A stretch of 64,000 bases of DNA, taken from Tahibacter soli. Lineage in GTDB: Bacteria > Pseudomonadota > Gammaproteobacteria > Xanthomonadales > Rhodanobacteraceae. The position numbers and the translations under genes were made by a program. The stretch is from assembly GCF_025717065.2 (NCBI RefSeq), contig NZ_JAOVZO020000015.1, positions 62,001 through 126,000 of the forward strand. The letters are read 5' to 3'. The notes below the pieces were generated by a model that had not been told where the DNA came from, ran no database searches, and saw only the letters and a list, made by a program, of their open reading frames with translations. Positions 2,842 to 59,300 of this stretch are shown here, one piece after another (position 1 is the first letter of the stretch; every line of letters starts with the position of its first letter).

Positions 2842-2933
2842 GGACGGCTCTCGCATTCAGGGGACTGCCGATGATAGCGGGGAAGGGCGTGTCTTCGGTG
2901 GACATGTCGCGGCGAACGGGCGTTCCGGGATTC

Positions 2934-9090: not shown

Positions 9091-9345
9091 ATCGGCAATG
9101 GGGACCGGCAATGAGGACAGTCAGGAACCTGCGACCAGGGGAGGTACACGGCGACCTGGCGTGACGAATGCGGACACCCGCAATCGGTGGACGCAATCTG
9201 CGCCGCCGACCGAATGTGGACAGACAACAATCGAGATATGCCGCTGGAATGTGGACAGACAGGAATCCGCCGTAATCCGGATAGACGACAATCGGCAATG
9301 GGGACCGGCGATGGGGACAGCCAGAAGCAAGAACCCGGACAGAAA
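9091..9345. repeat. Degenerate interspersed repeat cluster (GGACAG core)
   Basis: This fills most of the non-coding stretch 8927-9361. Repeated elements are GAATGTGGACAGACA (twice, near 9212 and 9247), GGGGACAGCCAG near 9314, GAGGACAGTCAGGA near 9115 and the direct repeat ATCGGCAATGGGGACCGG at about 9091 and 9291. The core is the same as in the 17-bp array at 2.9 kb but copies are diverged and irregularly spaced. I see no gene in 8927-9361. Confidence 0.75.
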
Positions 9346-9994: not shown

Positions 9995-10050
9995 ACCGCG
10001 CGGTTCGGGGACGAGGCAGCGACAAGGCCCCGCTGAAGCTCGGTTCACTG

Positions 10051-10338
10051 CGTAGAGCGCCGCGCTGCGCGCGCAGTATTTGTCTTGGATCCCGACCTGC
10101 GTCGGGATGACGAACCGGCAAAGCCGCGCTGAAGCGCGGGCCGGTTCGTACAGCGCCGCGCTGCGCGCGCAGTATTTGTCTTGGATCCCGACCTGCGTCG
10201 GGATGATGAACCGGCAAAGCCGCGCTGGAGCGCAAGCCGGTTCGTAGAGCGCCGCGCTGCGCGCGCAGTATTTGTCTTGGATCCCGACCTGCGTCGGGAT
10301 GACGAACCGGCAAAGCCGCGCTGAAGCGCGGGCCGGTT
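10051..10338. repeat. Three tandem copies of a 96-bp palindrome-containing repeat
   Basis: Exact 96-bp periodicity (units starting at 10051, 10147 and 10243) with a few substitutions. Each unit contains the inverted repeat ATCCCGAC-CTGC-GTCGGGAT and a second GCCGCGCTGAAGCGCGGGC-type hairpin. A degraded partial unit precedes the first copy at about 10030. The motif GGATCCCGACCTGCGTCGGG resembles a short palindromic repeat that is widespread in proteobacterial intergenic DNA. Because 96 is a multiple of three, the array stays open in several frames, which are not genes. It ends two bases before the mccB stop and may act as its 3' end. Confidence 0.92.
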
Positions 10339-10340
10339 CG

Positions 10341-11948
10341 TCACATTCTGAAGACGCCGTAGCGTTGCGGTTCGATCGGTGCGTTCAGGCTCGCGGAAAT
10401 CGCCAGGCCCAGTACGCGTCGCGTGTCCCTCGGGTCGATCACGCCGTCGTCCCACAGCCGCGCACTCGCGTAGTACGGATGGCCCTGCTTTTCGTACTGC
10501 GCGCGAATCGGCGCCTTGAACGCCTCTTCCTCGTCGCGGCTCCAGGCGGTGCCGGCCGCTTCGAAACCGTCGCGGCGCACGGTCGCGAGCACCGATGCCG
10601 CCTGCTCGCCACCCATCACGCTGATGCGCGCGTTCGGCCACATCCACAGGAACCGCGGCTGGTAGCCGCGTCCGCACATCGCGTAGTTGCCGGCGCCGAA
10701 GCTGCCGCCGGTGATCACGGTGAACTTCGGCACGTGCGAGCACGCGACCGCCGTCACCATCTTCGCGCCGTCTTTCGCGATGCCCGCGTTCTCGTATTTC
10801 TTGCCCACCATGAAACCGGTGATGTTCTGCAGAAACACGAGCGGAATATTGCGCTGGTTGCACAGCTCGATGAAATGCGCGCCCTTGAGTGCCGACTCGG
10901 CGAACAGGATGCCGTTGTTCGCCACGATGCCGACGGGATAACCGTAGATGTGTGCGAATCCACAAACCAGCGTTTTACCGTAGCGCGCCTTGAATTCCTG
11001 GAACTGCGAACCGTCGACGATGCGCGCGATGATCTCGCGGATGTCGAACGGCCGGCGCGTGTCGGCCGGCACGATGCCGTAGAGATCGTCGGCCGGATAC
11101 GCAGGCTCCTCGGGCGTCGCCAAGGCGACCGGCAGCGTCTTCTTGCGGTTGAGGTGCTTGACGATGTCGCGCGCGATCGCGAGCGCATGCGCGTCGTTCT
11201 CGGCGAAGTGGTCGGCCACGCCGGAAACCGACGTGTGCACATCGGCGCCGCCGAGCGATTCGGCGTCGACCACTTCGCCGGTCGCCGCCTTCACCAGCGG
11301 CGGGCCGCCGAGGAAGATCGTGCCCTGTTCCTTGACGATCACCGTTTCGTCGCACATCGCCGGCACGTAGGCGCCGCCGGCGGTGCACGAGCCCATGACG
11401 ACCGCGATCTGCGGAATGCCCAGGCCCGACAGGCGAGCCTGGTTGTAGAAAATGCGGCCGAAGTGCTCCTTGTCCGGAAACACTTCGTCCTGCAGCGGCA
11501 GGAACGCGCCGCCCGAGTCGACGAGGTAGACGCACGGCAGACGATTCTCGAGCGCGACCTCTTGAGCGCGCAGGTGTTTTTTCACCGTCATCGGGAAGTA
11601 CGTGCCGCCCTTGACCGTCGCGTCGTTCGCGACGACGACGATCTCCTGTCCGTGGACGCGGCCGATGCCCGCGATCACGCCGGCGCACGGCGCCTGGTCG
11701 TCGTACATGCCGTGCGCGGCGAGCGGCGAAAGCTCGAGAAACGGCGAGCCGGGATCGAGCAGCGCGCGGATACGCTCGCGCGGCAGCAGCTTGCCGCGCT
11801 CGGTGTGCTTGGCGCGGGCCTTTTCGCCGCCGCCGAGCGCGATCTTCGCCATCTGCGCCTGCAGGTCGTCGACCGCGGCGCGCAACTGCGCCGCATTGGC
11901 CTGGAATTCGGGACTGCGGGTGTCGATCTTGGTTTCGATCATGCTCAT
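10341..11948 (-). CDS. mccB: 3-methylcrotonyl-CoA carboxylase beta (carboxyltransferase) subunit
   Basis: A 535-residue biotin-dependent carboxyltransferase (liuB) that moves CO2 from biotin to 3-methylcrotonyl-CoA. Length and sequence match the methylcrotonyl type: CoA-site [39 protein letters not shown], the acyl-CoA segment [18 protein letters not shown] and [16 protein letters not shown], then [20 protein letters not shown]. It partners with mccA at 1-1564, about 8.8 kb away on the same strand; in most genomes the two are adjacent. No strong Shine-Dalgarno sequence is seen; ATGs at 11948 and 11942 are both possible. The 96-bp array immediately follows the stop. Confidence 0.95.
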
Positions 11949-15524: not shown

Positions 15525-15700
15525 CCGGACAGTCACGTTTCTCGGAGATCACCGGCGAGATTCGGGACAGTCACGTTTCTCGAAGGTCACTGGCGCAATC
15601 CGGGACAGTCACGATTCTCGAAGATCACTGGCGCAATCCGGGACAGTCACGATTCTCGAAGATCACTGGCGCAATGGAAGACGGTCATGTTTCTCGACTT
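15525..15700. repeat. Tandem 38-bp repeat array (4 to 5 units)
   Basis: Units begin at 15527, 15565, 15603 and 15641 with exact 38-bp spacing; a diverged fifth begins near 15679. Each opens with GGACAGTCACG(T/A)TTCTCG and continues with GATCACTGGCGCAATC. Copies three and four are nearly identical. The sequence GGACAGTCACGATT recurs at 34.3 kb. No spacer variation exists between units, so this is not a CRISPR. The following 15701-15897 holds no gene that I can support. Confidence 0.93.
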
Positions 15701-15897
15701 TCGAGATAGCTCAGGACCTCCGCTCTGTCGGGCAGTCGGGGCCGCCGCAAGCCGTCGCGCATGTCGCGCGCTCCAGCTGGGTGCGAATGGATCGAAGAAT
15801 TACACCCCGGAAGTTCCTGTGTGTCCCGGAAGCGCTGGAAATACGGGCGGCAAATCCTGGCTGTTTCGAAGCCGTGAGCAGAAGAATCGTGACTGTC

Positions 15898-16819
15898 CCG
15901 AAGTCGACTGTCCCGAAGTCGCGGCCAGAACGCACACTCGAACATACGTGCCGGTTTGGAAGAGGGGTTGCCTGGGGAGGGCTTGACGTTTTCTGGCTGT
16001 CCCCAAATTCGCAGGCTGTCCCGAAACCTGGCCTCGCTAGCCGCCGACGCGATCGCGAAACCGCAGGTACGCCCGTTCGACGTCGATCGGCGCTTCGACC
16101 TGCGGGTAGTGGCCGATGCCCTCCAGCAGCGTGACGTCCGCGGCCGGTACGAGTTCGTGATAGCGCTGTGCCATGTGCGCGCCGGAAATGGGGTCGCTCG
16201 CGCCGCAGATCAGCTTCAGCGGCGTGCGCGTGTCGCGCAGCGCGCCGACCCAGCGCTCGCGATGCGTTCTGCGTTCTTCGACGTAGCGGATGAGCCGCGG
16301 CAGCACGGCGCGACCGCCGTCGTGATCGATGAGTGTCCAGAAACCGTCCGAAGTCGACTATCCCGAAGTCGCGGCCAGAACGCACACGCGAACATACGTT
16401 CCGGTTTGGAAGAGAGGTTGCCTGGGGAGGGCTTGACGTTTTCTGGCTGTCCCCAAATTCGCAGGCTGTCCCGAAACCTGCGCAGGCTGTCCCGAAACGT
16501 GGCCTCGCTAGCCGCCGACGCGATCGCGAAACCGCAGGTACGCCCGTTCGACGTCGATCGGTGCTTCGACCTGCGGGTAGTGGCCGATGCCCTCCAGCAG
16601 CGTGACGTCCGCGGCCGGTACGAGTTCGTGATAGCGCTGTGCCATGTGCGCGCCGGAAATGGGGTCGCTCGCGCCGCAGATCAGCTTCAGCGGCGTGCGC
16701 GTGTTGCGCAGCGCACCGACCCAACGCTCGCGATGCGTTCTGCGTTCTTCGACGTAGCGGATGAGCCGCGGCAGCACGGCGCGACCGCCGTCGTGATCGA
16801 TGAGTGTCCAGAAACCGTC
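15898..16819. repeat. Head-to-tail tandem duplication of about 450 bp
   Basis: Segment 15898-16348 and segment 16349-16819 are near-identical, at offset 450 and then offset 471 after a 21-bp insertion in the second copy. The insertion is one extra unit of a GCAGGCTGTCCCGAAAC repeat near 16480. Each copy contains CTGTCC-type repeats at one end and the last 103 codons of the hydrolase gene at the other. The join at 16348/16349 fuses hydrolase sequence (AAACCGTC) to the repeat sequence CCGAAGTCGAC with only a few bases of microhomology. Scattered substitutions, such as Asp versus Asn in the coding part, show that it is not an assembly echo. Confidence 0.9.
16037..16348 (-). pseudogene. Truncated 3' copy of the MEST-like hydrolase gene
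   Basis: It is collinear with the last 103 codons and stop of the intact gene at 16508-17392, offset by 471 bases, and lacks everything upstream including the nucleophile region. The reading frame is still open (for example LPRLIRYVEERRTHRERWVG) and keeps the C-terminal histidine-containing segment LLEGIGHYPQVEAP. It has no start signal of its own at the junction, so it is a duplication remnant; a short product from an internal ATG at 16306 cannot be excluded. Confidence 0.88.
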
Positions 16820-19333: not shown

Positions 19334-22300
19334 ATGCGCAACAGGGGGCGGTTCGCGTGGCTGATCGCGACCGTCGTGCTCGCGACCGCGGTCGCGCACG
19401 ACGCCGTCGCCGCGCCCGCGTGGGCGGCGGATGCCGGCGTCGAACGCCTGCGTTTCAAGCGTCTGGGCGTGCGCGACGGGCTGTCGCAGACGATCGCCAC
19501 GACGCTTGCGCAGGATGCTCGCGGCTTCGTCTGGGTCGGCACGCAGGATGGCCTGAACCGCTACGACGGCTACGGCTTTCGCGTGTACCGGCACGACCGC
19601 GACGATCCCGCGTCGCTGCCCGACAACAACGTGCGCCGTCTGCTGGCGGATTCGAAAGGCCGGCTGTGGATCGGCTTTGCGACCGGCCTTGCGCGCTACG
19701 ACGCCGCGCTCGATCGCTTCGATACGTGGCGCCCCGCGCCCGGCGTGCGCAACGCGCTTGCGGCGCGCTCGGTCGGCGCGCTGCTCGAAGATCGCGACGG
19801 CCGCATCTGGGTGGCGACGTCCGGCGGCGCGCTGCAGTTCGTCGACGAACGCGGCGGCTTTGCGCCGGGTCCCTGCGACGGCGAGCCGACGGCGCGAATC
19901 AACGCGCTCGCCCAGGCGCACGACGGTGCGCTGCTGCTCGGCACCGATCGCGGGCTGTGGCGCTGCGACGTCGCGAGCGGCGCGCTGTCGGAAATCCGCT
20001 ACGGCGACGCGCGCATCGTGTCCGGCTCGCAGACGCTGCGCGTCGGCGCGCACGGCGAAATATGGGTCGCGGCGTCGGGCCAGGGCGTGTTCCGCTTCGA
20101 CGCCGACGGCACGCCGAGCCTGCGTCTGGATAGCGACGCCGTGCCGCCGCTCGCCGACCGCACGGTCCACGGCCTTGCGATCGATCGCGACGGCGCGGTG
20201 TGGTTCGGCAGCGACGTGCGCGGCGTGTCGCGTTTCGATCCGGCGACGCGTGCGCTCGAGAGCTACGGTCATGCGGTGGGGCGCGAATACTCGCTCGCGT
20301 CGAACCGCGCGTTCTCGCTGCTGGAAGACCGCGATGGCGTGATCTGGGTCGGCTCGTGGGGCAGCGGCGTGTCGCTGCTCGATCCGCGCACGGCCGCGTT
20401 CGTGCAGCTCGTGCCGGGCGCCGCGCCGCATGCGCTGCCCGGCGCGTCGGCCACCGCGGTGCTCGCCGACGCCGACGGCGCGTTCTGGATCGGCACGCTG
20501 GAAAACGGCGGGCTGTCGCGGTTCGATCCCGCGCGCGGCGTCGTCGAACGCCACGTGCACGATCCGGCCCGCGCCGACAGCCTTGCGACGAACTTCGTCA
20601 CGGGCCTCGCGCGCGGTCCCGACGGTTCGCTCTGGGTCGGCACGAACGACTCGGGGCTCGACCGGCTCGCGCCCGGCGCGAAAGGCTTCGCGCACTACCG
20701 GCACGATCCGGCGCGTGCCGACACGCTGCCCGACGACGACGTGCAAGGCCTGTACGTCGATAAAAGTGGAACCTTGTGGGTTTCCACCGCGAACGGCCTT
20801 GCCGCGCTGTGCGCCGGGTGCGATGCCTTCCGGCGCTACGTCAACGATCCGAACGATCCGGCGAGCCTCGGCGGCGGCAGCGTGCAGACCGTGCTCGAAA
20901 CGCGCGCCGGCGAGCTGTGGGTCGGCTTGCGGCGCAACGGGCTCGACCGGCTCGATCGCGCGACCGGCCGCTTCGAACACTTCCGCGCCGACCTCGACGA
21001 CGCGCGTTCGCTCGCCAACGACGTCGTCACGTCGCTGCACGAAGACGCGCGCGGCGACCTGTGGATCGGCACGCAGGGCGGCGGCCTCAATCGCCTGCGC
21101 CGCGACGCCGCCGGCCGCGTCGCGTTCGACGCCGTCACGACGCGCGAGGGCCTCGCGGCGGACGCGATCGGCGGCATCGCCGAAGACGCGCAGGGCCGTC
21201 TGTGGCTGTCCACGACCGCGGGCATCAGCCGCTACGATCCGCCGACGCGCAGCGTGCTCAATCTTTCCGGCGCGCGCGGCGGCTCCGACGCGGGCTATTT
21301 CATCGGTGCGGCGAGCCAGCATGCCGACGGCCGCGTGCTGTTCGGCGGACCGGCCGGCGTCACGGTGTTCGATCCGGCCGATGTCGCGACCGCACCGCCG
21401 CCGCAGCCGCTGTTCACCGACTTTCGCCTGTTCAACGCGCCGGTCGCGCCGCGCGCGCGCGACGCGGCGTCGCCGCTCGCCGCGACGCCGTGGACCGGCG
21501 GCGGGATCGAACTCGACTACCGACAGTCGATGTTCTCGCTCGACTTCGCCGCGCCGAACGCAGCCGATCCCGACGCCGTGCGCTACGCCTATCGCCTGGA
21601 CCCGCACGACGCGGAGTGGATCGAAACCGACGCGTCGCGCCGCACCGCGACGTACACCGCGCTGCCGCCCGGCGACTACCGGCTGCGACTGCGCGCGCGC
21701 TACGCAGGCCAAGCGTGGAGCGGTGCCGAAGCCGCGCTCGCGGTGCGCGTGAAGCCCGCGCCTTGGTTCGCGCCGCCGGCGCTGGCCGCGTATGTGGCGC
21801 TGGCAGCGCTCCTCGGCGCCGCGGGGTGGTGGCGCCGGCGCGAACGGCTGCGCCGGCGCGCCGCGGCGCAGGAGGATCTGCGCCGCAGCGAGGAACGCCT
21901 GAAGCACGCCTTGTGGGGCAGCGGCGGCGAGCTGTGGGACATCGATCTTGCGAGCGGCCGGCTGCATCGCGAGAACCGTCTGGAACATCTCGCCGCGAGT
22001 CACGACGCGACCGCCGAGACCGTCGCGTCGTACATGCCGTTCCTGCATCCCGACGATACGGGTTCGATGCGCGAGGCGATGATCGTGCACCTCAAGGGCG
22101 CGTCCGACGATTTCGCGATCAGCTTTCGTACGCGCGACCGCAGCGGCGAATGGACGTGGCTGCTCACGCGCGGGCGCGTCGTCGAACGCGATGCGCAGGG
22201 CCGCGCGCGCCGCATGACCGGCACGACGCACGACATCAACGCGTTGAAGCGCGCCGAAGAAGCGCTGCGCAGCCTGAACGAGGAACTGGAGCTGCGCGTG

Positions 22301-23131
22301 GAGCGGCGCACCGCGGCGCTGCGCACCGCGAACGTCGAACTGCAGCAGACGCTCGACCGCCTGACGCTGACGCAGCGCCAGCTCGTCGACGCGGAAAAAC
22401 TCGCGTCGCTCGGCGGCCTCGTCGCCGGTATCGCGCACGAGATCAACACGCCGCTCGGCGTCGGCGTGACCGCGGCGTCGCATCTGGCCGAAGAAGCGCG
22501 GCGTCTCGGCCGCGCGCTCGAAGGCGGCGCGCTCGCGCGTTCGGATCTGACGCGGTTCCAGGAAATGGCGCGCGAAAGCTCCGAGCTGATCCTGCGCAAC
22601 CTGCAGCGCGCCGACGGCCTCGTGCGCAGCTTCAAGCAGGTGGCGGTCGACCAGTCGAACGAGGACCGCCGCGTGGTCGAACTCGGCGCGTGTCTGCGCG
22701 AAATCCTGACGACGCTCGGTCCGGCGCTGCGCAAGACGCCGCACGCGGTGACGCTTGCGTGCCCGGTGCCGGTACCGTGCCTCACCGCGCCGGGCGCGCT
22801 GTACCAGATATTGACGAATCTCGTGATGAACTCGCTGACGCACGGCTACGCGCCGGGCGTCGCCGGCGCGCTGTCGATCGCCGTCGCGCGCGACGGCGAC
22901 GAGGCGGTCGTCGACTACCGCGACGACGGCGCCGGCATGGACGAGGCGACGCGTTCGCGCATCTTCGATCCGTTCTTCACGACGCGGCGCGGCCAGGGCG
23001 GATCGGGGCTCGGCATGCACATCGTCTACAACCTCGTGACGCAGGCGCTCGGCGGCACGATCGCGTGCCGCAGCGCGCCCGGCCGCGGCGTCGAATTCCG
23101 CATCCGCTTTCCGCACGGCACGGGCCGTTGA
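19334..23131 (+). CDS. Hybrid-type periplasmic beta-propeller sensor histidine kinase (Reg_prop/Y_Y_Y/PAS)
   Basis: A 1265-residue membrane kinase. A signal peptide is followed by about 14 two-component regulator propeller repeats (residues about 45-690, with recurring WVGT-x-GLNRYD motifs). A Y_Y_Y domain lies at about 700-800 and a membrane span at about 814-832 (LAAYVALAALLGAAGWW). A PAS domain lies at about 860-970 (ending HDINALKRAEE), then a coiled coil, a dimerisation/phosphoacceptor segment SLGGLVAGIAHEINTPLGV with His near 1036, and a HATPase with N-box NLVMNSLTHGY, DDGAGMDE and GSGLGMHIVYNL. There is no receiver or HTH domain, so it is not a full one-component hybrid. The ligand is unknown. 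The next kinase gene starts inside its stop codon. Confidence 0.9.
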   Translation: MRNRGRFAWLIATVVLATAVAHDAVAAPAWAADAGVERLRFKRLGVRDGLSQTIATTLAQDARGFVWVGTQDGLNRYDGYGFRVYRHDRDDPASLPDNNVRRLLADSKGRLWIGFATGLARYDAALDRFDTWRPAPGVRNALAARSVGALLEDRDGRIWVATSGGALQFVDERGGFAPGPCDGEPTARINALAQAHDGALLLGTDRGLWRCDVASGALSEIRYGDARIVSGSQTLRVGAHGEIWVAASGQGVFRFDADGTPSLRLDSDAVPPLADRTVHGLAIDRDGAVWFGSDVRGVSRFDPATRALESYGHAVGREYSLASNRAFSLLEDRDGVIWVGSWGSGVSLLDPRTAAFVQLVPGAAPHALPGASATAVLADADGAFWIGTLENGGLSRFDPARGVVERHVHDPARADSLATNFVTGLARGPDGSLWVGTNDSGLDRLAPGAKGFAHYRHDPARADTLPDDDVQGLYVDKSGTLWVSTANGLAALCAGCDAFRRYVNDPNDPASLGGGSVQTVLETRAGELWVGLRRNGLDRLDRATGRFEHFRADLDDARSLANDVVTSLHEDARGDLWIGTQGGGLNRLRRDAAGRVAFDAVTTREGLAADAIGGIAEDAQGRLWLSTTAGISRYDPPTRSVLNLSGARGGSDAGYFIGAASQHADGRVLFGGPAGVTVFDPADVATAPPPQPLFTDFRLFNAPVAPRARDAASPLAATPWTGGGIELDYRQSMFSLDFAAPNAADPDAVRYAYRLDPHDAEWIETDASRRTATYTALPPGDYRLRLRARYAGQAWSGAEAALAVRVKPAPWFAPPALAAYVALAALLGAAGWWRRRERLRRRAAAQEDLRRSEERLKHALWGSGGELWDIDLASGRLHRENRLEHLAASHDATAETVASYMPFLHPDDTGSMREAMIVHLKGASDDFAISFRTRDRSGEWTWLLTRGRVVERDAQGRARRMTGTTHDINALKRAEEALRSLNEELELRVERRTAALRTANVELQQTLDRLTLTQRQLVDAEKLASLGGLVAGIAHEINTPLGVGVTAASHLAEEARRLGRALEGGALARSDLTRFQEMARESSELILRNLQRADGLVRSFKQVAVDQSNEDRRVVELGACLREILTTLGPALRKTPHAVTLACPVPVPCLTAPGALYQILTNLVMNSLTHGYAPGVAGALSIAVARDGDEAVVDYRDDGAGMDEATRSRIFDPFFTTRRGQGGSGLGMHIVYNLVTQALGGTIACRSAPGRGVEFRIRFPHGTGR

Positions 23132-29767: not shown

Positions 29768-30704
29768 GCGCGTCGTCGGAGGCGGGCGGCTCGGAAGGTG
29801 TCGTCGCCGACGCCTCCGCGACTGTCCGTTCGATCAGACCGAGCACCGTCTGCGCGCGCGAACGCGACACCGGTACGGTTTCGGCGAGATCGCGCAGCGC
29901 GAGACGAAAGCCCTGTGCGTTGCCGCGCACGCCGGCGATCGCCGCGAGCGCGACGAGATACGAGCGATGGCAGCGCACGACGCTGCCGTCGTTGAACTGG
30001 CGCTCGACGCCCGATAGCGCGACGCGCAGCAGGCGATGGCTGCGTTCGCCGTCGCGCACGAAGACGACGTCGACGTAGTTTTCCTCGGCGCGCACATAGC
30101 GCAACTCGTCGGGCGCGAGTTCGACGGCGCCGTCGCGAGCGCGGACGAGTCGCGCCGGCGGCGCCTCGACCGGCACGTCGATTTGCGGCGGTGCCTGCGC
30201 ATCGACGAACTGCGCGGCCCGCACTTCGTTGCGTCGGCGCAGCCAGCGCTCGATCAGCAGCGTGCGCACGACGACCGGCGCGACCGCGCACAGTCCGGTG
30301 ATCGCGACGAACGCGCGTGCGCGTGTCGCGTTGATCTCGATATGGCCGTTCCAGGCGAGCACGGCCATGAGCGCACCGGCCACGACGACGACTTCGACGA
30401 CTTCCCAGACGACCTGCCGGCCGACGGTCCAGCGCGATTCGTCCCAGCGGCGCGCGAGCAACGCCGGTACCGCGACGCGCAGCACGAGCGATACCGCGAG
30501 ACATGTGCCGCCGAGCTCGCCGATCAGCAAAGCGGCGGCGGGATCGGGTACCGATGCGAGGCCGAACGGGCGCGCGACGTAGACGATGGCCGTGACGAGC
30601 GCCGTCGCGGCGACGGCGAAGCGCGTCTCCGGCCAGGGGCCGCGCCACAGCGGGTAGGGACGCGCGAGCCATGCGCGCAGGCGGTCGCCGATTCCGTTCG
30701 CCAT
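29754..30704 (-). CDS. Membrane-anchored LytTR DNA-binding regulator
   Basis: 316 residues with an N-terminal region of four probable membrane spans (for example FAVAATALVTAIVYVARPF and VVEVVVVAGALMAVLAW), a linker, and a C-terminal LytTR domain at about residues 190-290. Its signature is VELAPDELRYVRAEENYVDV, then RSHRLLRVALSGVERQFND and VRCHRSYLVAL. No receiver domain is present, so this is not a classical response regulator; direct sensing through the membrane part is inferred. I chose the ATG at 30704 (MANGIGDRLRAWL). It is convergent with the DUF1501 gene and divergent from the small membrane protein at 30822. Confidence 0.82.
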   Translation of the reverse strand: MANGIGDRLRAWLARPYPLWRGPWPETRFAVAATALVTAIVYVARPFGLASVPDPAAALLIGELGGTCLAVSLVLRVAVPALLARRWDESRWTVGRQVVWEVVEVVVVAGALMAVLAWNGHIEINATRARAFVAITGLCAVAPVVVRTLLIERWLRRRNEVRAAQFVDAQAPPQIDVPVEAPPARLVRARDGAVELAPDELRYVRAEENYVDVVFVRDGERSHRLLRVALSGVERQFNDGSVVRCHRSYLVALAAIAGVRGNAQGFRLALRDLAETVPVSRSRAQTVLGLIERTVAEASATTPSEPPASDDAPTPP

Positions 30705-30821
30705 CAGTGATCCATCATCCGTCGATCGTTGCCGTTCGTCACACGCGTTTGTCATTCGTCACCCGCCGCTGGCGCGCCGGGGGCGCGGCGCGCAGGGTGA
30801 ACGCCTCCAGCGGAGCGGATC

Positions 30822-31253
30822 ATGAACGAACTACGTTGCGCACGCACGGCGTTGACAGTTGGCGGCGCGTTGTCGATCGGCATGGGCGGCTTGCATTTAT
30901 GGCTGCCGCGGATTTTCGACTGGCACTCCTCGATGGCCTCGGTACCGGCAAGTCTGCGGTGGGCGCTGGTGTCGTTGAACGCGTTCTGGAGCCTCCTCGC
31001 AATCGGGACAGGCACGATCGCGTTGCGGCTGGCCCGGTACGACGAATGGCGCGAAGCGTCCGGGCGCTTCGTCGCTGCCACGTTCGCGGCGTATTGGGGA
31101 GCGCATGCTGCGTACCTCGCGGCATGGCCGTTTCCGTTGCCGCCCCGGCTGGCGTGGCTCGGCTGGGCGTTTCTGGGCTTCGCGATGGCGCAGTGTGTGT
31201 TGCACGGGGCGGCGGCGGGAATGCGTGGAATGCGGACACCCAGAAATTCGTGA
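30822..31253 (+). CDS. Small four-span membrane protein, function unknown
   Basis: 143 residues with four predicted hydrophobic helices: around 10-28 (ALTVGGALSIGMGGLHLWL), 44-66, 82-102 and 110-130. An aspartate and tryptophan pair (IFDWHSSM) lies in the first loop. I do not recognise the family. It is divergent from the LytTR regulator with 117 bases between starts, a layout often seen when a regulator controls its neighbour. The C-terminal residues (MRGMRTPRNS) run into a repeat element, so the repeat may have altered the original end of the gene. Confidence 0.6.
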   Translation: MNELRCARTALTVGGALSIGMGGLHLWLPRIFDWHSSMASVPASLRWALVSLNAFWSLLAIGTGTIALRLARYDEWREASGRFVAATFAAYWGAHAAYLAAWPFPLPPRLAWLGWAFLGFAMAQCVLHGAAAGMRGMRTPRNS

Positions 31254-31335
31254 CGAACGTGTGGAACGCGGACACTCAGAAATTCATGACGAGGGCCGGC
31301 GAGCAGACGAGTGGAATGTGGACACCCGGAAATTT
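31230..31335. repeat. Interspersed repeat cluster upstream of the RAYT gene
   Basis: Three diverged copies of GGACACCCAGAAATTCGTGAC: starts near 31232 (GCGGACACCCAGAAATT), 31269 (GCGGACACTCAGAAATT) and 31317 (GTGGACACCCGGAAATT), each preceded by (T)GGAA(C/T)G(C/T)GG. The nearest relatives here are the final units of the 2.9-kb array (GGACACCCAGGATTC). Bases 31336-31542 show no gene or clear promoter. Confidence 0.8.
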
Positions 31336-31542
31336 GCGACGATAGCCGGCGAGCGAGTGACTACGAACGAGAACGAACGAGCACGAATGAGGGCAGTCGA
31401 AAAATTGCCGCAAAGCCTGGAATGCGGAAAGCCGGTAGCGCGAATACTCACGATTGCGTTATGCGCCGAAATCGGAATTCTCCGAGATTTTCGACGGAAG
31501 ACGCCGGATGCGATAGACGTTCGCCGTTCGCATACTGACTGC

Positions 31543-32499
31543 ATGACACTCGCCCGCCTGCACACTGTCGATCCGCATTCGTCCGGCGCCTACCACGTCG
31601 TATCGCGATGTGTTCGCCAAGCATGGCTGTTCGCCCGCGACACCGAAACGGGGCGTGACTTGTCGCATCGGAAACGCTGGGTCGAAGAACGAATCCATCA
31701 TCTGGCCGCACATTTCGCGATCGCCGTCTACGCTTACGCGATCATGGACAATCACGTCCATATCGTCGTCCAGACCGACCCGGACAGACCTCTTTCCTGG
31801 TCCGCAGAAACCGTTCTGCGTCGCTGGCTGGCGGTTTGTCCGCGGCGATTCGAATCCGGCGCCGATTTGGAGCAGTACATTGAACGGCAATCAGAAAATT
31901 CATCGAGAGTCGCCGAGCTTCGTGCGAGGCTCGGCAGTTTGAGCTGGTTCATGCGCCTGCTGAACGAGCCGATTGCACGGCGCGCCAATGCCGAAGACAG
32001 TCGCAAAGGACGATTCTGGGAAGGAAGATTTCGGTGCCAGGCGTTGCTCGACGAGGCGGCGGTCCTTAGCGCTATGGCATACGTCGACCTGAACCCCGTT
32101 CGTGCAGGGATTGTCACCGCACCTGAGGCGGCGAAGCACGTTTCGATCCGATGGCGCTGCCGCAACAGCAGGCGTTGCCGCAAGAGGGCTGACGCACTGC
32201 GGCCGGTCGCTGGTTGCGGTCCGGAGCGCCTCGTCACGGAACGCGAGTACCTTAAGCTCGTCGATACGACCGGGCGTCTCGCAGGCAAAAAGAAAAACGA
32301 CGACATCGCACGGACGATGCTGCCGATTGTTCGACGTTTCGGGCTCTCGGAGTCGGCTTGGATTGCGCAGGTTCGTGGCACCGAGTCTTGCTATTGGCGC
32401 GTCATCGGCCGGTTCGAATCGTTCCTCGACAAAGCCGCCGAACTCGGCCAGCGCTGGCTGAAGGGGTGTCGATTCGCCGGTCGCCTGGAAGCGGACTGA
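31543..32499 (+). CDS. REP-associated tyrosine transposase (RAYT, IS200-like Y1)
   Basis: A 318-residue Y1 transposase-like protein. Key parts are GAYHVVSRCVRQAWLFARD at the N-terminus, the HUH metal motif in YAIMDNHVHIVVQTDP near residue 70, and YVDLNPVRAGIV near residue 180, the conserved segment of the single-domain RAYT family. It is larger than true IS200 TnpA (about 150 residues), as RAYTs are, and I see no terminal insertion-sequence ends around it. RAYTs nick and join single-stranded DNA and are thought to spread their cognate short repeats. Repeats lie on both sides (31230-31335, 32810-32900). Its lower G+C and less biased codon use than the neighbours suggest a transferred gene. Confidence 0.88.
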   Translation: MTLARLHTVDPHSSGAYHVVSRCVRQAWLFARDTETGRDLSHRKRWVEERIHHLAAHFAIAVYAYAIMDNHVHIVVQTDPDRPLSWSAETVLRRWLAVCPRRFESGADLEQYIERQSENSSRVAELRARLGSLSWFMRLLNEPIARRANAEDSRKGRFWEGRFRCQALLDEAAVLSAMAYVDLNPVRAGIVTAPEAAKHVSIRWRCRNSRRCRKRADALRPVAGCGPERLVTEREYLKLVDTTGRLAGKKKNDDIARTMLPIVRRFGLSESAWIAQVRGTESCYWRVIGRFESFLDKAAELGQRWLKGCRFAGRLEAD

Positions 32500-32804
32500 C
32501 GCTCGGCGCTGTCTCGCCGACCTCATCGAGTCTGTCCCGTCGAATAGCTTTCGCATCGTGCGGCCACCGTGGACTGCGTTCGGACAAATGTCCGAACAAA
32601 CGTTGCGCGAAATAGCGACGGGCGTACCTCCTCCTTGTCGATCGAATCGACGCGTCTTGAGGCGTCGCTGTCGCGTGGTCGAATTGTCACGAGCGTCCCT
32701 GTCTCGCTCGTGTCGCGATTCGCGGAAATTCGCCGAATGCTCGCCTACGCTGCTTTCCTCGGCCCGGGCTCGCCGTTCGCCTTCGTGGGTGCGCGCTCGT
32801 GATT
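32500..32804. other. Non-coding stretch without recognised content
   Basis: This lies between the RAYT stop and the next repeat cluster. Small open frames exist on both strands but none has a ribosome-binding site or recognisable product. Base composition is less G+C rich than the metabolic genes, as in the RAYT gene, so it may belong to the same transferred segment. Confidence 0.5.
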
Positions 32805-32809
32805 GATTT

Positions 32810-32900
32810 CCAGACTGTCCAGATTCGATCTCCTCGCCCGACTTCCAGACTGTCCAGATTCGCTCGCCCGGCTTCCGGACTGTCCACATTCGATCCCCAG
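32810..32900. repeat. Interspersed repeat cluster downstream of the RAYT gene
   Basis: Three copies of (C/G)(A/G)GACTGTCCA(G/C)ATTCG with starts near 32812, 32847 and 32877, joined by CTCGCCCG(A/G)CTTCC. This is the reverse orientation of the GGACAG family (its complement reads CGAAT-TGGACAGTC). With the cluster at 31230-31335 it brackets the transposase in inverted orientation. Confidence 0.82.
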
Positions 32901-32946: not shown

Positions 32947-34118
32947 ATGCTGAAACACGCGCTCGCGCTAACAATCGCAATGGCCATTCCGTCGCTTGCA
33001 GCGGCGCAAACGCTGAGCGTCGGGCCTGGCCAGCCCTACGCGACGCCATGTGCCGCGATTGCCGCGGCGTCGGCGGGCAGCACGATTCTGATCGACGCGG
33101 CCGGCAACTATGACGGCAATGTCTGTGGCTGGTCGACGAACGGATTGACCTTGCGCGGTGTCAACGGTCGGCCGCGCATCGATGCGGCCGGCAACAACGC
33201 GCAGGGGAAGGCCATCTGGGTGATTGCCGGCAACGACACGACGATCGAAAACGTCGAACTGTCGGGCTGTCGCGTCCCCGACGGGAATGGCGCCGGCATT
33301 CGTCAGGAGGGTAAGAACCTGACCGTGCGCCGCGTTTTTTTCACGACAACGAGAACGGCATTCTCGCCGGCGACAAGATCGGCAGCACGATACTGATCGA
33401 ACATAGCGAGTTCTCGCACAACGGCGCCGGCGACGGACTTACGCACAACCTGTACATCAATCACGTCGATACATTGATATTCAGGTACAACTGGTCGCAT
33501 GGCGCGAGTGTCGGCCACTTGCTGAAGTCGCGAGCGCGACAAAACTTCGTGCTGTACAACCGTCTCACCGGCGAGGCCGGCGGCACCGAGAGCTACGAAA
33601 TCAATTTGCCGAGCGGCGGCACCTCGTTTGTCATCGGCAACCTCATCCAGCAACCCTCGACATCGCAGAACGGTGCGATGCTCGACTATCTGAGCGAGCC
33701 GGGGAATACCAATCCCGACGATCATTTGTTTGTCGTCAACAACACGTTCGTCAACAACCGCAGCGCCGGCACCTTCGTTCAGATCGGTGCCGCCGCGATG
33801 TCGCCTGCGCTCATACGCAACAACATCCTGTTCGGCAACGGCACTGTGAGTACGCAGGCTTCGGCCGTCGTCGACCACAATCTGACCGGTAGCGCGCCCA
33901 TGTTCGTCGACGCGGCGAACTTCGACTACCGGTTGCTGCCCGGCGTCGCGGCGATCGACGCCGGCGTCGATCCCGGTAGCGGCATGGGCCAGTCGCTGAT
34001 GCCGACGCAGCAGTATCGACATCCGACTGAGGCTTCGTCGCGCTCGACGGCGGGAGCGATCGACATCGGTGCCTACGAATGGCTGCCGGATCTGATTTTT
34101 CGCGCCAGCTTCGAATAG
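32947..34118 (+). pseudogene. Exported parallel beta-helix protein interrupted by a frameshift in a T7 run
   Basis: A signal peptide (MLKHALALTIAMAIPSLAAA) opens a right-handed beta-helix-type sequence (TILIDAAGNYDGNVCGWSTN, TTIENVELSGCRV). The frame is lost at seven Ts, 33335-33341. One extra T restores the continuation RVFFHDNENGILAGDKIG and the second half, which runs in the other frame from 33342 to the stop at 34118 (FRYNWSHGASVGHLLKSRA, INLPSGGTSFVIGN). The C-terminus ends DLIFRASFE, the tag also seen in other exported proteins here. Restored length is about 390 residues. It may be a sequencing error, a real null allele or slippage-based phase variation; both halves look well conserved. 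The family resembles surface polysaccharide-binding or lyase-like beta-helices, function unknown. Confidence 0.75.
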
Positions 34119-34204: not shown

Positions 34205-34345
34205 AATTCCGGGACTATCGGCCGATTCCAGGACGGTCACCCTGCGATTCAAGGACAGTCACCATGAATCGTGGCGCAGCCCGTTTGCGGACAGTCACGA
34301 TTCGCAGACCGGTTGCGGACAGTCACGATTCGCAAGTCGACGACT
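34205..34345. repeat. Interspersed repeat cluster (GGACAGTCAC type)
   Basis: Five units: GGGACTATCGGCCGATTCC, AGGACGGTCACCCTGCGATT, AGGACAGTCACCATGAATC, and two nearly identical copies of TTGCGGACAGTCACGATTCG near 34286 and 34314. The last two match the 38-bp array at 15.5 kb in GGACAGTCACGATTC. The rest of 34119-34590 has no gene I can support. Confidence 0.82.
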
Positions 34346-36123: not shown

Positions 36124-36344
36124 GCTGTAGCCCCCCGGTACCAGCACAGGCAGTCTACTCCAGAACCTTCGATTCGGAAGCCCGGGAGTCGGTACGACAT
36201 GACGTTCGTAATTTACGCATTCTTCGCGCGACGACGGCGCTTTCGCGTCGCGTCTTGAACGCGTCGCGGTTCTGATTCAGACCTGAGTTCGTACGTACGA
36301 GTTTGTCTCGATCATGCGATGGTCGGCGCACCAACGCGTTTCGT

Positions 36345-36470
36345 GGCTGTCCAGATTTCCCGCAGGTTTCGCGTGCTCGTAACGTTTTGTGTCTGTCCCG
36401 GTCTTGCGGACGTTTGATCGCGCCGGGCCGGGTCGGGAGCGTACCCGGAACGTGCCTGTCCGAAACTTGC
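36345..36470. repeat. Degenerate CTGTCC repeats between the HD-GYP and liuA genes
   Basis: Scattered units TGGCTGTCCAGATTTCCCG near 36346, GTGTCTGTCCCGGTCTTGCG near 36391 and TGCCTGTCCGAAACTTGCCC near 36456, all in the CTGTCC orientation. They occupy most of the 460-base gap 36124-36583. I see no gene there. Confidence 0.65.
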
Positions 36471-37909: not shown

Positions 37910-38425
37910 CGGTTTTGTGTCTGTCCAGGTTCGATTCTGGGGATTCGCGGCTGTCCCGATTCCCGCACGTGGCTGACCCGATACGGAGACTCTCCCGACC
38001 GGAGCGAATGCGTGACTGCCTTGATTCGCTCGCGATTCATGACGGTCCCGGTTCCGCATGCGCGCCTGCACAACTATGCGCCGTCTGATCGATTCCAGGT
38101 CGGAGTCCGGCAAACGATGACTGTCCCGGTTCGGTCTCCCGGTCCGGTCGCGAATGGTGCTGCTCGGGATTCTTGACTGTCCTGATTCGCTCCTCGGGAT
38201 TCTTGACTGTCCTGATTCGCTCGATCGCGATTCTCGACTGTCCCGGATCTGCTCGACTGTCCCGGATCTGGTCCTCGACTGTCCCGGTTCGGTCGGGAAC
38301 GATGGGGCCACGCAATTCGTGGATGTCCCGATACGTTTGATGTCCTGATACGCTTCGCTCGCGGACCCGATACGCTTCACGACGGCTCCGATTCGCCGGC
38401 GATTCGTGCCTGTCCCATTCCGCCG
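37910..38425. repeat. Long cluster of CTGTCC interspersed repeats
   Basis: At least ten diverged units lie between liuA and the carbonic anhydrase gene, for example TGTCTGTCCAGGTTCGATTC near 37920, two adjacent copies of TTCTTGACTGTCCTGATTCG near 38172 and 38202, then TCGACTGTCCCGGATCTG near 38247 and 38263, CGACTGTCCCGGTTCGG near 38276 and GTGCCTGTCCCATTCCG near 38406. The orientation is the same as the clusters at 32.8 and 36.4 kb. No gene is supported in 37742-38488. Confidence 0.85.
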
Positions 38426-53324: not shown

Positions 53325-56300
53325 ATGGAGCGTTATTCACGGAGAAGCCGGTTGCTGCCGGCTTGCGTGAGCGTTGGCTTTTTCCTGGCTCTCTGCTTGT
53401 CGTTCGGTGTCGTCGGTGCCCGCGGCGGCCCGGCCGACGATCCGATCTTCGCCGACGGTTTCGAACCTCGGCCGCCGTGCCTGCCGGGCGTGCCGGACGC
53501 CGACGGCGACAACCTCATCGATCTCGCCTGCGCGACGCCGTTCGTGCCGCCCGATCCGGCGGCCGTCGCGACGCCGATCGACCCGACCGTCGCGACCGAC
53601 TTCCACGAGGCGACGCGATTCCTGTACGCGGGACCCGAACCGGTCCAGCGCGGCGTGGCGCCCGACGCGATCAGAAGCTGGCGCGCGGCGGTGCTGCGCG
53701 GTCGCGTGCTCGACGGCGACGGCGCGCCGCTGCCCGGCGTGCTCGTGCGCGTGCTCGACCGGCCGGAACTCGGCTACACGTATACGCGCGCCGACGGCAT
53801 GTACGACCTCGCGGTCAACGGCGGCGGCGAGCTCACCGTCGATCTGCGCAAGCAGGGCTATCTGCGGGCGCAGCGCGCCGAACGCGCGCCGTGGAAGGAC
53901 TGGCGCGTGATGCCCGATACGCGCATGGTCGCGCTCGACGACGCCGTGACCACGATCGGCCTGACGCCGACGAGCGACGTGCAGGTGCACCGCGCGAATC
54001 TCGTCGCCGACGCCGACGGCGCGCGCCGCGCGACGGTGATCTTTCCCGCCGGCGTCACGGGCGAACTCGTCGCCGCCGACGGCACGCGCCGGCCGCTGTC
54101 GACGATCCGCTTCCGCGCGACGGAATACACGGTCGGCCCCGAAGGCCCGCAGCGCATGCCCGCGAGCCTGCCGGCCAGCGCCGGCTACACGTACGCGGTG
54201 GAACTCGGCGCCGACGAAGCCGTCGCGCAGGACGCGCGTTCGGTCGAGTTCGACCGGCCGATCGTCCTGTATTTCGAAAATTATCTCAATTTTTCGACGG
54301 GTAGCCGCATCCCGCTCGGCTACTACGATTTCCGGCGCGGCTCGTGGCTGCCGGCGCCGAACGGGCGCGTCGTCAGGATCGTCGGCAACGTCGGCGCGCT
54401 GGCGTTGCTCGACATCGACGGCAGCGGCACGCCGGCCGACGACGCCGCGCTGACCGCGCTCGGCGTCACCGCCGGCGAGCGCGCGAAGCTCGCGCAGATC
54501 TATCCGGTCGGGCAGGTGCTCTGGCGCAGCGCGATGACGCATCTGACGCCGTGGGACTGCAACTATCCGTACGGGCCGGACCCGAATCCCGATCCGCCGC
54601 AGCCGCCCGAACCGCCGGACGATCCGCCGTATCCGGACGATCCGCCGACCGATCCGACCGACCCCGGCCCGCCGACCGATCCCGACGGCGACGACGATCC
54701 GGCCGAGACGGACGAGGCCGAAGACACCGACGAATCCGACTGCGAAACCGGCAGCGTCATCGACTGCACGAACGCGCGGCTCGGCGAATCGGTGCCGATT
54801 CCCGGCACGCCGGTACTGCTCACGTATCGCAGCGACCGCGTGCCCGGCGGCACGCCGGAAAGCTTCAGTGTGCGCATGCGCCTTTCCGGCGCCGCGGTGC
54901 CGCGGCAGGTGCGCAGCATCGAAAGCGAAATCTGCGTCGGCGGGCAGTGCTTCCGCGAAAGCGAAGCGCCGGCGCCGAACCGCTTCCGCAACTTCGCCTG
55001 GAACGGGCTCGACGCCTACGGCCGGCAGTGGCAGGGCAGCGCCGCGATGACCGCGCGCATCGGCTACGCGTATGGACTCGTCTATCAGGCGACGAGCGAT
55101 GCGTTCGAGGCGTCCTGGGCCGGGCTGTCCGGCGTCGCGGCGATCGAGCGCGGTACCGGCACGGCCACGCTGTGGAGCCGATACGCGGGCCAGACGACGA
55201 TCACGCAGCCGGGGCGTTCGGTCGGCGCGTGGAGCGCCGCGGGGCTCGGCCTCGGCGGGTGGTCGATCTCGCTGCATCACGTGTTCGATCCGCAGACGCG
55301 CACGCTGTACTACGGCGACGGCACGCGCCGCCGCATCGGCATGGTCGGCGACGGCGGCGCGACGATCGTCGAGCCGTTTTCGAGCCGCGTTTCGGCGAAC
55401 CACGATCCGTTCGCGCTCGACGCCGACGGCACCGCGTTCCAGCTCGAGACGTTTCCGCGGCGCGACGCGCCGAACGGCTCGATCGGCCGGCAACTGGTCT
55501 ATGCGCATCCGCCGGGTTCCGACACGTCGATCGAGCTGGCGCAAAGCTGCCCGCCCGACGACGACAACCACATGCGCTGCGCGCCCGGCTCGACGCCGGT
55601 TTGGCGCACCGTGCACCGTCTGGTCGCCGACGACCGTTCGCGCGTGATCCTCATTGCCGATACGGGTGTGTTTCGCGTGAACGGCGGCGGCGCGATCGAA
55701 GCGCTGCTGCCCGCGGAACTCGCCGGCCGCGACTGCACGATCGACCGGCTCGCGGCGTGGTTCGAGCGCCGCCTGTACTTCGCCTGCGTCGACAGTGCGG
55801 AAAAGACGCGCCTCTTCACGCTGTGGCCGGACGGGCAGGTCACGCTGCTCGCCGGCGGCGGCAGCGATGCCGGCGCCGACGTCGCGGCGTCCGCGGCGCA
55901 GTTCGAGCGGTTCGGCGCGCTGGCGATCGGACCGGACGGCACGCTGTTCGCGACCGAGCCCGGCGCGAACCGCATCCGGCGCATCGGCACCGACGGCCGC
56001 GTGACGATCGCGGCCGGCAACGGCACTGCGGGGTTCACGCCCGACGGCGCGACCGCCGCGGGCGCGGCGATCGGCGACGTCATGGCCATCGCGGTGTCGC
56101 ACGAGGGCACGCTGCTGTTCGCCGAGTCGCCGCGCATTCGGGAAATCGCCAAGAATGGACAATTGCGCACCGTCGTCGGCGGCGGCGACGGCTATCCGTC
56201 GCGCGAGACGCAGAGCCTGGGTCGCGCCTTGTCGGTGCAGGCGAGGTCGATCGAATCGCTGCCCGACGGCAGCATCGTGTTCGACGACTGGGCCGGCGGC

Positions 56301-59300
56301 GTGCTGCGCTCGTCGCATTCGTCGTTCCGCCTCGACGGCCCGGAAGCGGCGATCACGATCGCCTCGCAGGACGCGCGCGAGCTGTACGTGTTCGACCGCA
56401 ACGGACGGCACCTGCAGACGCGCGACGCGATCACCGGCGCCGTGCGCTACGCGTTCCGCTACGACCCCGCGGGCCGGCTCGTCGAGATCGAGGACGGCGA
56501 CGGCAACGTGACGCGCATCGTGCGCAACGCGGCCGGCGTCGCGACCGCGATCGTCGGCCCGTACGGCACCGCGACGACGCTCACGATCAACGCGGCGGGT
56601 TATCTCGAAGCGATCGATCCGCCGCTGGTGGATCCGTGGCGCATGACCTACAAGCCCGGCTACGCGGGGCTGCTGCAGACGTTCACCGATCCGCGCGGCT
56701 ACGCGAGCGCGTTCGAATGGACGCTGCTCGGACGGCTTTCGAAGGACACCGACGCCGAAGGCGGCTACCAGGAACTCGTCAGCTACGCGTGGGATTCGCA
56801 GCGCGCGCGGGAAAGCAGCTACGAGAGCGCGCTCGGGCGCAAGGGCGTGAGTTATCGGCGTCGCGCGCCGGGCGGCGACGCGTATCGCACGTCGGCGCGC
56901 AGCGACGGCCTCGAACGCCATCTGTTGAGCGCGCGCAACGCCTCGCAGGCGGTCTACGACCTGCGCACGGGCATGTTCGCGAACACGCGGTTCAACGCCG
57001 ATCCGCGCTACGGTTTCCAGGCGCCGGTCGCCGGCGAAACCGGGGTTGCCTGGGGGACGTCGGTCGGCGTCGAGCGCCGCTCGCGCTACGTGCAGACCGG
57101 CGGCGACGGCACGTACGACGTGACCGAAACGCGCGAGATCGACACGCGCGTCTTCGCGCGCGCCTACACCGCGGCCGACCGCACCTGGACCTTCACGACG
57201 CCGATGGGACGCGAGATGCGCATCGTCGTCGACGCGCAGTCGCGGCCGTTGCGGCGCGAGATCGCGGGCGTGGCGCCGGTCGAATACGCGTACGACGGGC
57301 GCGGACGCCTCACCGGCGTCGCGCAGGGGCAGGGCGCGCTGCGTCGGAAATGGAGCTACACGTACGACGCGAACGGCTATCTCGCGTCGGTCGAAGATCC
57401 GCTCGAGCGCGTCGTCGAATTCGAGAGCGACGCGATCGGGCGCCGTCGCGTGCAGCGCCTGCCGGGCGCGCGCGCCATCGCGCTCGACTACGACGCGAAC
57501 GGCAATCTCACCGGCGTGCAGCCGCCGGGTCGTCCGGTTCACGGGTTTACTTATAACAAAGTGAACACGATGACCGCGTACCGGCCGCCGGCGATCGCCG
57601 GCGGCGCGGTCGACCGCACGTACACGCCGAACCTCGACCGGCAGCTCGCGGGCATCGCCGATCCGGACGGCCGGACGATCGGCGTCGGCTACATCGCGAG
57701 CCGCACGCAGCCGCAGACGCTGACGCTGCCCGGCGCGGCGCGCACGTTCGGCTATACGTTCAACGGCCTCGCCGCGACGATCGACTCGACGAGCGAGCCG
57801 TCGCTGGCGTTCGAGTGGGACGGCCCGTTCTACGCGGGCTACACGACGTCGGGCGCGATCGCCGGCCGCGTGCAGCTCCTGCGCGGCGCCGTCGCGAGCG
57901 CGCCGGGGCAGTTCTGGTTGAACGGTATCCGCACGACGGCGGGCGGCGACGTGCACGACGTGTCGTACGACTACGATCGCGACGGGCTCATGCTGGGCGC
58001 GACGTTCGACGCCGGCACGCCGGTCGCGCTGTCGCTCGCGCGCGATCCGGCCAACGGCCTGTTGCGCGGCACGCAGATCGGCCTCGTCGCCGACACGCGC
58101 GGCTACGACACGTTCGGCGAACTCGACGACTATGCCGCGACTTTCGACGGCGACCCGCTGCTGCACGCCGCGTACACGTTCGACAAGCTCGGCCGCGTCG
58201 TCGCGCGCACCGAGACCATCGCCGGCGCGACGCACGTCACCGCGTACACGTACGACGTCGCGAGCCGCCTCGACACCGTCACCGTCGACGGCGTGCTGCA
58301 GGCCGACTACGACTACGACGCCAATTCGAACCGCCGCACGGCGACGACGCCCGCGGGCGCGACGAACGCGACGTTCGACGACCAGGACCGCCTCGCGACC
58401 TGGGGTGCGCAGACGTTCGAGTACAACCGCAGCGGCCAGCTCGCGGCGCGGCGCGACGGCGACGACGTCACGCGCTACGACTACGACGCGCTCGGCAACC
58501 TGCGGCACGTCGACCTGCCCGACGGCACCGACGTCGACTACGTGATCGACGGCCTGAACCGGCGCGTCGGACGCAAGGTCGACGGCGCGCTCGTGCAGGG
58601 CTTCCTCTACGTCAACCAGCTCAAGCCCGCGGCGGAACTCGACGGGGCCGGAAACATCGTCGCGAGCTTCGTCTACGCCGACCGCCAGTACGCGCCGAGC
58701 TTCATGGTCAAGGCCGGCCGCGCGTACCGCATCGTCGCCGATCGTCTCGGCAGCCCGCGCCTCGTCGTCGACGTCGAGACCGGCGCGATCGCGCAGCGCA
58801 TGGACTACGATGCGTGGGGCAACGTCACGCTCGACACGAACCCGGGCTTCCAGCCGTTCGGCTTCGCCGGCGGTCTGTACGACCGGGCAACGAAGCTCAC
58901 GCGCTTCGGCGCGCGCGACTACGACGCGACAACGGGCCGCTGGACCGCGAAGGACCCGGTCGGCTTCGGCGGCGGGCAGGTGAACCTGTACGCCTACGCC
59001 GGCAACGATCCGGTGAACCTCTTCGATCCCGGCGGTTACCGCCTGTCGTGGAACCAGGTCGCGAACATCGTGTTCAACGAGACGCGTTCGCTCGACGGCC
59101 CCGGCATCGACCAGGCGCGCAAGGACGTCGCGCACGCCGTCATCAACGGCGACGAGCAGTTCGGCAACGCGCGCCCGCAGACCTCGACGACGCGCGCACG
59201 CGTGCCGCGCGAGGAGCGCGACGTGTACGAACAGTGCAAGAGCGCGACCATCGACGCGTTCATCGACGAGTACATGGGCATCGACCCGACGAACGATGCG

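Follow-up and report, generated by a model that had tools for sequence, protein, structure and literature searches.

A Y1 transposase gene of Tahibacter soli between hairpin-less inverted repeats that form arrays at the ends of a probable IS-like element

Introduction

Among the systems with which the present locus invites comparison are the RAYTs, groups of which were reportedly dealt with by Bertels et al. 2017. In the available parts of the literature on RAYTs (TnpA-REP), REPs are described as GT[AG]G-tagged hairpins and the genes as not multicopy (Nunvar et al., 2010, PMC2817692; PMC8266576), and elements of the IS200/IS605 type are given subterminal hairpins and no terminal inverted repeats (PMC2817692; PMC6006769). 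TIRtrons, as characterized in the accessible text of Di Nocera et al. (2013; PMC3733652), have the motif GGGGWSAS and clustered repeats. The portions of Quentin et al. (2018; PMC6006769) at hand place most TIRYTs in subclass 2.1 of the TnpA-Y1 proteins, with helix-turn-helix tails, and describe subclass 2.3 as proteins of ~325 aa with WE, YVDLNP and NHYH. The same portions report automatic and manual searches in which subclasses 2.1 and 2.3 yielded no REP-like sequences, and the recognition target of both subclasses was thus open. Here we analyze a stretch of 64,000 nucleotides from Tahibacter soli (contig NZ_JAOVZO020000015.1; hereafter the window), in which an initial annotation, made from the sequence alone, had placed a RAYT bracketed by inverted clusters of its cognate repeat, possibly a REP class lacking classical hairpins.

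Results

The gene assigned in the initial annotation to a Y1 (HUH) protein with NHVHIVV and YVDLNPVRAG lies at 31543-32499 on the plus strand of the window, and the assignment was borne out: its 318-aa product, P0001, contains both segments and matches Pfam Y1_Tnp with 27.8 bits (cut-off 23), which is its sole Pfam match at E 0.001, with no helix-turn-helix C-terminal domain. An AlphaFold2 model (pLDDT 89.5) has a Y1 core with helices 82-130 inserted between beta3 (71-78) and helix 133-151 and a helical tail at 201-317; the traits of subclass 2.3, namely insertions between beta1 and alphaA and between beta3 and alphaC and a long C-terminal tail, are all found in the model. The best structural match in the PDB is 4er8_A, a REP-bound transposase (Foldseek E 5.7e-4, TM 0.65 by target), and it shows that the HUH/Y1 fold is present; searched by sequence, the PDB gave only one weak, irrelevant match for P0001, and PHROGs gave no family. 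P0001 also carries FWE and YVDLNP, the latter conserved in all 75 relatives readable as protein (75/80; the 80 are the best of 555, mostly from Lysobacterales), and the full-length relatives are mostly 308-337 aa long. A smaller protein set of 52 sequences consisted of P0001 and 51 of the 75 readable relatives. The presumed catalytic tyrosine of P0001 is Y180. Where P0001 has NHVH, the relatives have chiefly NHLH or NHYH, the published subclass 2.3 motif being NHYH. Its own genome holds 13 tblastn matches to the protein, seven of them nearly full-length and the others partial, and several divergent gene copies per genome are the pattern, with copy numbers that are lower bounds (at most 7 candidates scored for each genome). 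By architecture, and judged against the published description of the subclass, P0001 fits TnpA-Y1 subclass 2.3, an assignment that draws on sequence motifs and a predicted fold.

The repeat units on either side of the gene were also mapped where the initial annotation had seen them, three GGACAC units on the left (31234-31320) and three in reverse orientation on the right (32885-32820). The left array (31225-31340, plus strand) consists of three units of the form GTGGAAYGY followed by GGACAC[CT]C[AG]GAAATT, with GGACA at 31234, 31270 and 31320; inspected by eye, GTGGAAYGY precedes all three units and differences begin at -10 (negative positions lie outside GGACA). The right array (32808-32896, minus strand) consists of three units of the form CGAAT[CG]T followed by GGACAGTC[TC]GGAA, with GGACA at 32885, 32855 and 32820, so that both triplets point inward, reading GGACAC on the left and, reversed, GGACAG on the right. 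Allowing at most one mismatch, GGACAGTCNNGAA has 21 matches in the window, as against a mean of 0.87 and a maximum of 3 in 100 shuffles. The gene had been described as less G+C rich than its surroundings, and G+C is indeed lower there than to the left, with 0.55-0.64 across 31251-32750 and 0.67-0.72 across 30001-31250 (250-bp bins). Between the left array and the gene, GAATACTCA (31442-31450, plus strand), which matches the motif at 7 of 9 positions, is probably a decayed inner left terminus; it lies 101 bp from the start codon, compared with a median of 85 bp for the intact inner left ends of relatives. Because this terminus looks decayed and the intact units lie farther out, the window copy of the element appears to be old. 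To its right, a gene at 32949-34118 (plus strand) has an apparent frame change near 33.34 kb, seen by eye. Elsewhere in the window are an open frame of 2038 aa that contains teneurin YD-shell and RHS repeats (53325-59441, plus strand) and a 1265-aa hybrid sensor with propeller repeats and Y_Y_Y, PAS and histidine kinase domains (19334-23131, plus strand), all by Pfam.

Association of the repeats with the gene extends far beyond the window. De novo ranking of 8-mers in inward-read flanks, ignoring a row of masked N, put GGACACCC first, with 155 occurrences against 6.1 expected and presence at 48 of 80 loci (best 80 of 555 relatives). Within 400 bp of the gene, GGACA reads inward and outward 284 and 37 times, respectively, in the best 80 of 555 relatives, 46 and 4 times at eight copies in the own genome, and 150 and 24 times at 46 held-out loci of other genomes, a set freed of loci that duplicated one another or a locus of the first set. 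An inward unit is present on both sides at 54 of the same best 80 of 555 relatives, 6 of 8 own copies and 28 of 46 held-out loci, and on at least one side at 74/80, 8/8 and 43/46, counts that include some loci cut by contig ends. In 297 related genomes, repeat number followed gene presence, the comparison that the initial annotation had proposed: tandem pairs average 7.79 in the 67 gene-positive and 1.02 in the 230 gene-negative genomes (1.96 and 1.44 for a reversed control pattern). Permutation within families gave p = 0.0002, the lowest value that the test can return (control pattern, p = 0.11), and the same value when the own genus was left out (control, 0.20). Genomes with many repeats and no gene, the case that had been named as speaking against the pairing, are uncommon, at least five tandem pairs occurring in 4 of 230 gene-negative genomes (one of which has 13) versus 19 of 67 gene-positive ones. 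Tandem pairs are absent from 16 of the 67 gene-positive genomes. Motif drift may explain part of these, since the copies in one genome, G005, carry variants such as GGCCATCC; more generally, some copies use other motifs, for example GGCCATCC or AGACACCC. At loci L274-L280 of G005, which belongs to the window's genus, the variants are near GGCCATCC or GCCACCCA and perhaps co-evolve with the protein. Of 369 gammaproteobacterial genomes sampled, 57 contain the transposase family. We conclude that the pairing of the repeat family with the transposase family is real and family-wide.

The units have a 9-nt core, GGACA[CTG]CCA; in their logo, positions -6 to -4 are rich in A, and no dyad stands out. 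Folding revealed no hairpin in them, the mean z of -0.39 to -0.09 comparing with -0.15 for control stretches and with -4.0 for an E. coli REP as the folding reference (for logo and folding both flanks were read inward; four own copies were left unturned, with little effect on the counts). The DNA that gene copies of one genome have in common begins ~85-91 nt ahead of the start codon and extends to the first unit on the right, which in most copies lies 150-230 nt past the stop. When such copies were aligned on GGACA and pairs with similar far flanks were dropped, identity at the left end was 0.77 at -4, 0.51 at -7 and 0.29 at -8 (35 pairs, 8 genomes) and at the right end 0.69 at -5, 0.43 at -6 and 0.35 at -8 (49 pairs, 9 genomes), right-end similarity dropping across -5 to -8 and not at a single point. 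Because the DNA shared by same-genome copies ends at the units, we take these to be the termini of an element of ~1.2-1.3 kb in the examined relatives, with GGACAYCCA reading inward at both ends, together with arrays of such termini; the GGACAGTCACGATT variant is the putative target of the window protein. An empty site was not among the results when a 4.6-kb stretch of the window was compared with 61 genomes, which gave only the gene or one flanking gene: the right flank matched at 70-71% in two genomes, and no joined flanks were found. The matches of 70-71% to the gene at 32949-34118 (plus strand) are to DNA of G036 and G022. Two loci that share one flank (L050 and L051) likewise gave no empty site, and left and right words of one locus, compared by eye, do not match as direct repeats of a target duplication. 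On balance we consider it probable that an IS-like element resides here, in which a single-strand HUH transposase gene of TnpA-Y1 subclass 2.3 lies between hairpin-less inverted repeats of the form GGACAYCCA and arrays of these repeats arise by local duplication; the failure to find an empty site, the gene-positive genomes without tandem pairs and the copies with other motifs count against this reading.

Units also occur apart from the gene. In the window, units without a transposase gene comprise an array of ~18 copies of the 17-bp unit TTCGGGACAGCCAGGAT (2931-3240, plus strand), scattered GGACA[GC] units (9115-9265, plus strand), an array of 4.5 copies of a 38-bp unit (GGACAGTCACG...; 15527-15697, plus strand), three GGACAGTCAC units (34253-34334, plus strand) and a seven-unit array, mostly GGACAGTC (38126-38328, minus strand). 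The 38-bp array is faced by units at 15891-15921 (minus strand), forming an inward pair with 257 bp between the first bases of the facing units; on the minus strand there are, in addition, two GGACAGCC units at 16002-16021, three more at 16445-16498 with a period of ~21 bp, and scattered GGACAG units at 36340-36461. Arrays with a regular period of 16 or 17 bp, that at 2931-3240 among them, are composed of a word of 8-9 nt plus GGACASCC. Two further long 16-bp arrays, with 31 and 19 units, were noted in genome G000 (C15:37358-37845 and C20:497679-497974), where differing words adjoin GGACAGCC or GGACACCC. A 96-bp tandem repeat of 3.3 copies at 10023-10341 of the window has no relation to the GGACA family.

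In the 6.65-Mb own genome there are 13 exact copies of GGACAGNCACGA, 12 of them on the window's contig at 34.9-100.4 kb; with one mismatch there are 141 matches against 257 for the reversed control, and the looser count is meaningless because it does not exceed the control. Local spread around the gene, as suggested by the placement of GGACAGNCACGA, was considered and dropped because arrays sit hundreds of kb from the nearest copy or on contigs where no copy was found. The wider unit family, counted as tandem pairs, occurs throughout the genome: GGACASYCN{4,34}GGACASYC has 151 matches in the own genome versus 1 for the reversed pattern, and GGACACCC pairs number 78 versus 0, with many of the matches coming from a few long arrays. 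Across 1.47 Mb of the own genome, made up of stretches picked partly because units were present, 30 of 41 unit clusters have no gene match within 600 bp, and adjacent opposite-strand pairs face inward in four cases and outward, back to back, in one. A local tblastn search of the examined stretches for decayed copies of the gene next to arrays lacking one turned up nothing besides the matches and fragments already known. The gene-less units could be remnants or non-autonomous derivatives of the element, the numbers being too small to choose.

At the ends of the element, short words next to the motif recur outward. We took the 8 nt outside the innermost GGACA and scored exact recurrence within the next 200 nt outward, excluding ends with N or with <208 nt of outer sequence (leaving 115/120, 61/66 and 13/13 ends). 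Words recurred at 39 of 115 ends (at 17 twice or more) compared with 0 of 110 far controls for the best 80 of 555 relatives, at 17 of 61 ends compared with 3 of 60 controls in the held-out set, and at 3 of 13 ends compared with 0 of 13 controls for the own copies; the far control shifts with the random draw (2/123, 4/123, 0/110). Per end, the best 80 of 555 relatives have 0.878 word copies, as against 0.010 in shuffled regions and 0.0046 at other loci. The words thus recur locus by locus, each array having its own and hardly ever those of other loci. The repeated segments tend to have their outer boundary in common: of 134 copies from 27 ends of the best 80 of 555 relatives, 83 place it at -9 or -8; in the held-out set 31 of 72 copies (16 ends) begin at -9 or -8 and 47 of 72 at -9 to -7. 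Their inner stops are scattered from -1 to +38, and the outer boundary is the tighter of the two at 24 of 27 and, held out, 12 of 16 ends. When the segments were anchored on GGACACCC-like cores the contrast was weaker (outer tighter at 13 of 21 and 5 of 9 held-out ends), and the eight own copies show the boundary poorly, with 4 of 9 repeats at -9/-8 and 5 at -6. These repeats resemble the tips of the element itself, copied in a stutter.

That the terminal arrays are ordinary tandem repeats which, once the element had inserted, grew by unequal exchange or slippage of replication and without any role of the transposase is in our view unlikely, albeit the strongest of the competing accounts. It agrees with the great regularity of the gene-less 16-17 bp arrays and with short matches seen by eye at some junctions, and it would also accommodate the missing age gradient: among 23 arrays of at least 4 units, units farther out were no less similar in their words to the innermost one (mean rho +0.27; of 20 values, 11 positive and 6 negative). 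Slippage, however, predicts boundaries that vary on both sides, and the outer one is tighter than the inner at most ends of both sets; moreover, this boundary falls near the point at which same-genome copies diverge, and words taken at control places seldom recur (0/110, 3/60). Nested remains of elements that inserted into their own ends and were later truncated seem still less probable as a source of the arrays. Such insertions would place the outer boundary roughly at the element border, as found, and at one locus (L030) a second, fuller left end does lie outside the first, but many units are shorter than 20 bp, and array words match one another and hardly those of other loci (a mean of 0.0046 copies per end), which argues that the segments derive from the resident end.

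Local duplication of the tips, the reading that we prefer, might proceed as follows. The outer start of the repeated segments, 7-9 nt outside GGACA, lies near where same-genome copies diverge, and is for that reason taken as the enzyme's putative cut-and-join point. A predicted nick on the inward-reading strand, in single strands carrying GGACACCCA, would expose a free 3' end toward the element; this end would be extended by a few to some tens of nt into the tip and then re-join the held 5' end. Repeated rounds of extension and re-joining would yield the word followed by a variable stretch of tip as a local tandem duplication, the regular 16-17 bp arrays would be later expansions of tip plus GGACASCC, and gene-less arrays would represent remnants of the element or its non-autonomous derivatives. 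Because the expected gradient, with the newest unit innermost, is absent, homogenisation or another route of duplication must be added, and this absence counts against simple addition at the resident end. We therefore put forward only tentatively, as a possibility short of even odds, that nicking by an HUH transposase 7-9 nt outside a motif without a hairpin, followed by repair or re-joining, repeatedly duplicates the tip and so writes the tandem arrays.

Discussion

That the repeats are a REP class moved around the genome by its RAYT is improbable, for although the fold is shared with a REP-bound transposase (4er8), the flanking units are inverted, and many units lie far from the gene (30 of 41 clusters), four pairs facing and one back to back, the units have no hairpin, P0001 scores 47.5 bits against NCBIfam REP_Tyr_transpos, under the cut-off of 80, and several divergent copies with shared ends are unlike the single-copy RAYTs in the available part of Nunvar et al. 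(2010; PMC2817692). Of the proposal that the units are the cognate, hairpin-less repeat class of this protein, the pairing with the family and the lack of a hairpin are supported, and the REP designation is not; with a subclass 2.3 architecture and divergent multicopy genes whose shared DNA ends at the units, the REP/RAYT label should give way to that of a TIRtron-type, IS-like element belonging to subclass 2.3.

The motif offers a testable recognition candidate, and a predicted cut site, for subclass 2.3, for which none has been reported before; a search for the motif strings in the open-access literature gave no transposase title among the matches listed. The shared outer boundary of the tip arrays is a new point, and it, too, can be tested. 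If arrays do arise at transposase nicks, single-strand transposition would be linked to the birth of bacterial tandem repeats, which would then have an enzyme-driven origin, with gene-less arrays as its solo products.

Compared with IS200/IS605 elements, the present ones likewise have a Y1 HUH transposase and ends that move with the intervening DNA as a unit, but they possess terminal inverted repeats and lack hairpins. With RAYT/REP systems, as far as described in the parts available (PMC2817692; PMC8266576), they share the HUH/Y1 fold and inverted flanking repeats; they differ in units that are hairpin-less with the core GGACAYCCA and in having several gene copies, and GT[AG]G-tagged hairpins were not found in the flanking units. 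Likeness to subclass 2.3, in the sections of Quentin et al. (2018; PMC6006769) at hand, covers protein length, WE and YVDLNP, two insertions in the core and several divergent copies per genome, whereas the differences are NHVH in P0001 in place of NHYH and the cognate terminal motif found here. From the TIRYTs of subclass 2.1 in those sections P0001 differs in having no helix-turn-helix tail by Pfam. TIRtrons resemble the present elements most: in the accessible text of Di Nocera et al. (2013; PMC3733652), a RAYT-like Y1 gene is flanked by inverted repeats and not by REPs, repeats occur elsewhere too as dimers or clusters, and the motif GGGGWSAS overlaps the present units in GGACAS. Iteration of tips with a shared outer boundary finds no mention in that text, and the present core, GGACAYCCA, usually comes without GGGG, G not being general at -1 and -2. 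Like TIRYTs and TIRtrons, the present element has terminal inverted repeats in place of REPs. On the sequence comparisons made here, the present elements are closest to TIRtrons and appear to extend the TIRtron arrangement to subclass 2.3, with a related core motif.
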